Virus record (IMG/VR): IMGVR_UViG_3300028027_000090
Location: 1-45,548 of that record
Strand: one strand, 5' to 3'
DNA: 45,548 bases
Source: a virus
Numbering within the stretch: the stretch's first letter is position 1; every line of letters begins with the position of its first letter. The position numbers and the translations under genes are program-made. The notes under the pieces were generated by a model that worked only from the letters and a program-made list of their open reading frames with translations, had not been told where the DNA came from and did no database searches. Positions 28,426-29,076 of this stretch are shown piece after piece.

Positions 28426-29076
28426 ATGAGATACCTAAAAACGTTCGAAAGCCACAGTAGCAAAGACATTCTTATTATAGTCGATGTTCAAAAATCATTC
28501 AAAAAATTCTTTAATGATGCATATCTTGATGAACTTAAAAAATATTGCAATGAGTTTAGTAAGGTATATCAAATATGGGATAATCACCATCTTGGAAAGA
28601 ACGTCGACAAAGACTATCTCTATGATGAAGATCCTGAAATCCCAGTACACAAAGACCTATATCATTTTCCAAACCAATCAGACTTGATCGAAAAGAGATA
28701 CAATTATGACGTAGACGCGGACTTCTACAAAAAAATTCTTAGCCCGGACATCTATAAGGAAGTAAGCGAAAAAGAAGACGCGAACGAGCTGAAGAAGGGA
28801 GACTTCTTTCCAACAAACGAAGGAACACTCATAGTCTATGTCGCAAACAACCATAAATGGTACCACATGCCAAAGAAGCTACACGAGCTTTTCGAGGAAG
28901 TTGTCGAAGCACAAAGCGTAAATGAGGGATTGAATGAAGTTAGAGACGTCATTCTCGTAGGCGGTGCTGATGGGGAATGCCTTACCGATATCGAAACCGC
29001 TGCAGTCGCGATGGGTGTGAAGCTAAAAAGAAACGAAAGATATATCTACTCTGCTTCGGATTGTCCTATAAAATAA
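28426..29076 (+). CDS. Tagged isochorismatase/nicotinamidase-like hydrolase
   Basis: 216 residues beginning MRYLKTFESHSS, the clearest tag (Glu at 8). The rest resembles the isochorismatase-like cysteine hydrolase fold: ILIIVDVQKSF with Asp20, VYQIWDNHHLGKNVDK (strand 2 region), and a C-terminal VILVGGADGECLTDIETAAVAMG with Cys185 in the usual place of the nucleophile. Members of the family hydrolyse nicotinamide, isochorismate or similar amides. Which one applies here is not known, and metal-binding residues were not all placed. As a tagged protein it could be carried in the head and act in the cell immediately on infection. It is convergent with gp25. Confidence 0.65.
   Translation: MRYLKTFESHSSKDILIIVDVQKSFKKFFNDAYLDELKKYCNEFSKVYQIWDNHHLGKNVDKDYLYDEDPEIPVHKDLYHFPNQSDLIEKRYNYDVDADFYKKILSPDIYKEVSEKEDANELKKGDFFPTNEGTLIVYVANNHKWYHMPKKLHELFEEVVEAQSVNEGLNEVRDVILVGGADGECLTDIETAAVAMGVKLKRNERYIYSASDCPIK

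Follow-up and report, generated by a model that had tools for sequence, protein, structure and literature searches.

The proteins injected by phage T4 include an ADP-ribosyltransferase and a restriction inhibitor. The T4 internal proteins IPI–III and Alt carry a short N-terminal tag with a hydrophobic or aromatic residue at position 4 and an aromatic residue at position 7 (PMC9026906, PMC3012670). Residues 4 and 7 drive capsid targeting, ten residues are enough to bring foreign proteins into the head, and the prohead protease gp21 cleaves after (L/I)-x-E (PMC9026906). The start of IPII, MKTYQEFIAEA, was confirmed in T4 records. The protein studied here combines a tag of this type with an enzyme domain whose nearest solved folds are PF00857 hydrolases, namely S. 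aureus PncA (SaPncA, 6kua), the S. pneumoniae nicotinamidase (3o90–3o94), 2a67, YecD (1j2r) and PhzD (1nf9). Nicotinamidases have a DXH...PXH fingerprint that supplies an Asp and two His metal ligands (PMC3581539). Superfamily and targeting principle are each known already. In the literature searched, which misses most subscription journals, we came across no description of such a hydrolase combined with a tag, of this divergent subfamily or of a tagged set this large; searches for isochorismatases together with phages, or for capsid targeting in huge phages, returned nothing on point.

A tagged hydrolase gene among structural genes

The whole stretch of DNA that we analysed (the window), a virus fragment of 45.5 kb, encodes a tail tube, a tail sheath, a large terminase, a gp25-like baseplate wedge, a clamp loader, a portal protein (37831–39543, + strand; PHROG 213, E 2.6e-58) and a T4 gp21-like head maturation protease (43376–45493, + strand; PHROG 207, E 2.1e-30), the last being a partner that a targeting tag would be expected to have. 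The protease is fused to a repeat region (YSEYIAEN/S...) in which units like NIAYSEYVAENLDK follow each other in tandem about twelve times; by eye, each unit resembles a T4 tag and cleavage site. These repeats may form a self-cleaved scaffold joined to the protease.

The hydrolase gene occupies positions 28426–29076 (+ strand). The ORF is complete, starts with ATG and encodes 216 residues with the N-terminus MRYLKTFESHSSKDILIIVDVQKSF; together with its relatives and modeled structure, it resolves into a tag, a linker and an isochorismatase-like hydrolase domain. The initial annotation had reported this ORF exactly as it is present; ILIIVDVQ, which includes Asp20, occupies residues 15–22, and GGADGECLTD, which includes Cys185, residues 179–188. 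On one side the gene is flanked by a second tagged gene (27654–28346, + strand), whose product begins with MKHIRQFESF and is Gln/Gly-rich in its C-terminal half, and on the other by baseplate and clamp-loader genes. The neighboring tagged protein has an ortholog in the 634-kb phage LR745206 (72% identity over 158 residues). A hairpin followed by a T run at 28365–28391, resembling an intrinsic terminator, separates the two tagged genes. Just upstream of the pair lie two small, fast-evolving ORFs (26698–27593), the first of which gives an Rz-like spanin match (PHROG 739, E 4.8e-4). At the start of the window, a 404-residue protein (108–1322) matches the phiKZ internal head protein family PF12699, though below the threshold (E 0.004).

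Relatives and conservation

A tblastn search against annotated phages found homologues in three uncultured megaphage genomes: LR745206 (634 kb, 62% identity to the window protein), LR756502 (642 kb, 60%) and LR756501 (735 kb, 30%), the same match being given by LR756503, a record of the same length as LR756501. A profile-guided scan of IMG/VR added 238 stretches with a relative confirmed by tblastn. Conservation counts given below refer to 74 distinct proteins assembled from fetched loci. The largest genomes of Al-Shayeb et al. 2020 (PMC7162821) belong to the Mahaphage clade, for which Bacteroidetes hosts are predicted, and the carriers would be megaphages related to such genomes. The 541-kb phage Lak-A1 gave no match in a search run without a positive control. 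Plasmids that we searched had no relative, and none of 154 pattern matches in GTDB genomes proved to be a true one; therefore, within the scope of that search, the family looks phage-only.

The gene is present in a single copy in LR745206, LR756502 and LR756501, and exactly once in each of the seven large records searched. Between the window and the 634-kb phage, its product is 62% identical, which is close to the values for gp25 and the tail sheath (64% each) and far above those for the spanin-like genes (29–32%). Judged by these identities, the hydrolase gene evolves at the pace of core genes and behaves as one of them. One locus, L022, differs in arrangement: there the hydrolase shares a frame with an upstream tagged protein in an ORF ending at 1685, with 561 codons between stops. 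An internal FES tag remains at the junction, and the arrangement is either a natural fusion or an assembly error.

Fold and family placement

Single-sequence and profile searches of Pfam, NCBIfam, PHROGs, PADLOC and PDB sequences assigned the hydrolase to no family. It did not reach the curated cut-off of PF00857, for which the proteins of the 634- and 642-kb phages gave no match at all, and a search of BFVD viral structures yielded neither a match at E ≤ 0.001 nor a clear family. Since there is no Pfam, NCBIfam or single-sequence match, the protein apparently represents a highly divergent, unnamed subfamily.

Structure prediction was more informative about the fold class. The AF2 model, built from an alignment with 39 relatives, has a pLDDT of 83 and a pTM of 0.81, with residues 1–10 disordered. 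The best Foldseek matches in PDB were the S. aureus nicotinamidase, a cysteine hydrolase and an isochorismatase, all with probability 1.00, at weak E-values (2e-3 to 5e-3) and modest TM-scores (about 0.37–0.52). In the VIA-align comparison, all 50 of the 50 entries were isochorismatase-like hydrolases (Z up to 8.9). Adding the 735-kb lineage to the alignment produced a second model with no better confidence and a weaker Foldseek E-value (2e-2), for which VIA again returned this superfamily throughout (Z up to 9.0; range across both models, 7.7–9.0). Profile–profile comparison pointed in the same direction: starting from the 735-kb member, the score against PF00857 members was 31, the best of 60 column-shuffled runs reaching 19.6, and hhalign brought D20 and C185 into register with the corresponding Asp and Cys of PncA.

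The isochorismatase-like fold class proposed in the initial annotation is thus backed by AF2, Foldseek, VIA and hhalign. That annotation had made family similarity in profile searches a test of its proposal; Pfam and NCBIfam gave none, a result overruled by the structural and profile–profile comparisons. By predicted structure and motifs, then, the protein is placed in the isochorismatase-like cysteine hydrolase superfamily, far outside its named families, and this membership is structural rather than Pfam-defined. It shares with PF00857 hydrolases the order of strands and helices, the VDxQxxF motif with its Asp, the Gly-x5-Cys motif and an invariant Lys between them. In contrast to them, it lacks a Pfam match, does not conserve the metal ligands, bears an N-terminal targeting tag and contains an insert of about 40 residues in which NxHxW is invariant.

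Candidate active site

Residues invariant in all 74 proteins are L16, V19, D20, V21, Q22, F25, F44, V47, Q49, D52, F81, N83, K90, Y92, G125, F128, N141, H143, W145, G179, G180, E184, C185, D188 and G197. Thus the Asp/Cys pair singled out in the initial annotation, which hhalign aligns to its PncA counterparts, is strictly kept. Asp20 (28483–28485), the proposed catalytic Asp, lies in VDxQxxF at the end of strand 1. Cys185 (28978–28980), the proposed nucleophile, lies in GGADGEC, where the Gly-x5-Cys spacing is the same as in GLATDYC of E. coli PncA.

The same annotation had called for a third catalytic residue, for which Lys90 (28693–28695) is the likely candidate. It is the sole invariant lysine and ends the third long strand (84–90 in the model), 38 residues past D52. 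In the hhalign alignment K90 does not fall on the PncA Lys, that stretch being aligned differently; its assignment as the third catalytic residue is by position, and we regard it as the most likely one. Two other lysines were considered and rejected: relatives have Q, R, V or E instead of K124, which lies in the K-G that hhalign puts near the PncA Lys, and K144 of NHKW is variable. D20, K90 and C185 are all unchanged down to about 30% identity.

A further invariant motif, N141-x-H143-x-W145 (28846–28860), lies in the family-specific insert (about residues 105–147), modeled with short strands at 127–147. For substrate binding, this invariant motif would be a better candidate than the less conserved residues of the metal site.

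A modular T4-type tag

The tag, MRYLKTFES (residues 1–9, 28426–28452), resembles a capsid-targeting sequence and is disordered in the model (pLDDT about 40). It is followed by a variable linker (residues 10–14, 28453–28467) in which relatives have indels, as seen from per-position entropy and gaps. All 70 near-lineage members have the tag at the N-terminus, counting five in which the called ATG is just upstream of the tag's own Met.

How typical is such a tag in related genomes? In the 634-kb LR745206, a strict FES-type tag opens 30 ORFs, compared with 0.34 expected from shuffled N-termini, and occurs at 2 of 3056 internal Met. The 30 tagged proteins form 29 unrelated clusters; the strong positions of their tag are K2, L/I/V4, K5, F/Y7 and E8, with a hydrophobic residue at 4 and an aromatic one at 7, as in T4. 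A T4-type pattern is found on 23 ORFs of the same phage (1.9 expected), while in the 735-kb LR756501 the T4-derived pattern opens 59 ORFs (2.3 expected) belonging to 39 clusters. The claim that the hydrolase bears a strong N-terminal tag is therefore borne out: the tag is modular, far above chance and T4 capsid-targeting-like. We consider the tagged ORFs of these two phages a candidate list of head-packaged proteins.

The 735-kb homologue of the hydrolase is among the 59, with its own near-T4 tag MKVIKFSDYLKES. Since it bears the tag type of that phage, tag style appears to vary with the genome; in both lineages the hydrolase remains tagged, each time in the local style. Given the modularity of the tag and the near-T4 tag of the 735-kb homologue, the predicted packaging of the tagged hydrolase in the head is well supported by analogy with T4.

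Similarities to IPI–III and Alt extend to the presence of the tag on unrelated passengers and of a gp21-like protease in the same phage. Unlike in T4, the passenger here is a cysteine-hydrolase-type enzyme that is single-copy and clade-conserved rather than hypervariable, tens of proteins per genome are tagged, and the near-lineage tag appears to lack a T4-type cleavage site. Its end, TFE|S, fits (L/I)-x-E poorly, with E8 off the rule, whereas the end of the 735-kb tag, YLKE|S, fits it.

Proposed role and alternatives

Combining the tag, the fold class, the conserved candidate triad and the core status, all computed here, we propose that the product of this megaphage gene is a divergent isochorismatase-like cysteine hydrolase which is packaged in the head by a T4-type tag, injected, and acts on a small molecule. 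We give this reading about an even chance of being correct. By analogy with T4, the tag would bind the scaffold core during prohead assembly; the enzyme would then be trapped in the head and enter the cell along with the DNA. As in other members of the superfamily, Cys185, activated by Asp20 and Lys90, would attack a carbonyl carbon in a small amide or a related compound, presumably by thioester chemistry. Because the gene is single-copy, slowly evolving and present in every related genome searched, it may serve a housekeeping step of host take-over or remove a common host signal, in preference to a role in narrowly targeted anti-restriction. Removal of a small-molecule immune signal was considered as a candidate task; the broad conservation argues for a generic one.

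An alternative that we take seriously, but consider unlikely, is that the protein is packaged mainly as a head-core or structural component built on an old enzyme fold, hydrolysis not being its job. Core-like conservation and the place of the gene in a structural gene region agree with such a role, as do the many strictly conserved residues away from the presumed active site (VYQ, NxHxW and VDKDYLY). On the other hand, Asp, Lys and Cys invariant in 74 of 74 proteins, down to 30% identity, would be unusual for a dead enzyme. Moreover, in the 735-kb phage the gene sits at 456 kb, distant both from the tail and terminase genes (about 600 kb) and from the portal and protease genes (about 72 kb).

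Less probable still is that the tag is a different signal, for example for an assembly site in the infected cell, and that the enzyme is cytoplasmic and not injected. Most tagged proteins have no clear protease site after the tag, some of them may be cell-internal, and virion proteomics for these phages was not found in the literature. The close positional match to the T4 tag, the near-identical tag set of the 735-kb phage and the prohead protease in the window all favor head targeting instead.

The initial annotation had suggested nicotinamide as the substrate. Several points favor a nicotinamidase that supplies NAD salvage and might in this way counter NAD-depleting immunity. Nicotinamidases are the closest solved folds, and the window protein has both halves of the fingerprint (PMC3581539): D52-N53-H54 (28579–28587) at the end of strand 2 (46–52 in the model), in the place of the DXH metal motif, and P73-V-H75, whose His75 (28648–28650) is a possible third metal ligand. 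NAD rebuilding is a known counter-defence of phages (PMC12774641), and relatives encode NAD genes. The 642-kb phage has an NAPRT-type gene and NadE, and LR756501 has an NAD-salvage cluster at 423–431.5 kb (L357 2002–10475) comprising PncA, NadR, a PnuC-like membrane protein, NadE and NAPRT; the PnuC-like assignment, and that of an apparent TonB-dependent receptor in between, were made by eye. NAD salvage in these phages is thus real.

Yet the tagged hydrolase lies outside that cluster, and the conservation of the metal ligands speaks against nicotinamide. D52 is invariant, but H54 is kept in 70 and H75 in only 55 of the 74 proteins, and both are absent from the 735-kb lineage; a metal site, as far as these alignments indicate, is therefore not a feature of the family. 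In addition, LR756501 encodes a separate canonical PncA at 423 kb (L166 1300–1974; PF00857, E 3.9e-13), whose best NCBIfam match is nicotinamidase (E 3.5e-39, under the equivalog cut-off). The two proteins share the superfamily and, in that phage, the genome, but PncA, unlike the tagged hydrolase, is untagged, keeps the metal-ligand motifs and sits with NadR, the PnuC-like protein, NadE and NAPRT. We conclude that the substrate is probably not nicotinamide and regard the nicotinamidase role as improbable. The accompanying claim of a tagged ART-like protein found no support either: PF03496 matched neither the window nor the three relatives, this being one ADP-ribosyltransferase family, so that other ART folds are possible.

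Finally, an unrelated alpha/beta fold with chance motifs, to which the weak Foldseek E-values and the lack of a sequence-profile match might point, is very improbable, as the structural lists of both models hold a single superfamily throughout and VDxQxxF and Gly-x5-Cys occur in the right order and in register.

Returning to the injected hydrolase, a wider generalization can be offered tentatively, and we hold it with considerably less confidence: in megaphages of this clade, a T4-type tag may direct a set of enzymes and small proteins, numbering in the tens, into the head, with the hydrolase as a core member that removes or converts a small molecule of the host, perhaps a stress or immune signal, at the start of infection. 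Such chemistry is undescribed for an injected phage protein in the open literature searched. If true, small-molecule chemistry, in the form of a conserved cysteine hydrolase, would join the cargo that a phage delivers with its DNA, and the tag census would offer a catalogue, drawn up from sequence alone, of candidate injected proteins for the largest phages known.

A different tagged enzyme was noticed next to the hydrolase in LR756502, where an FES-tagged SET-domain protein (PF00856, E 2.3e-11) is encoded directly downstream (L084 8650–9090). It is possibly an injected lysine methyltransferase. Similar ORFs are present in loci L038, L128 and L134.
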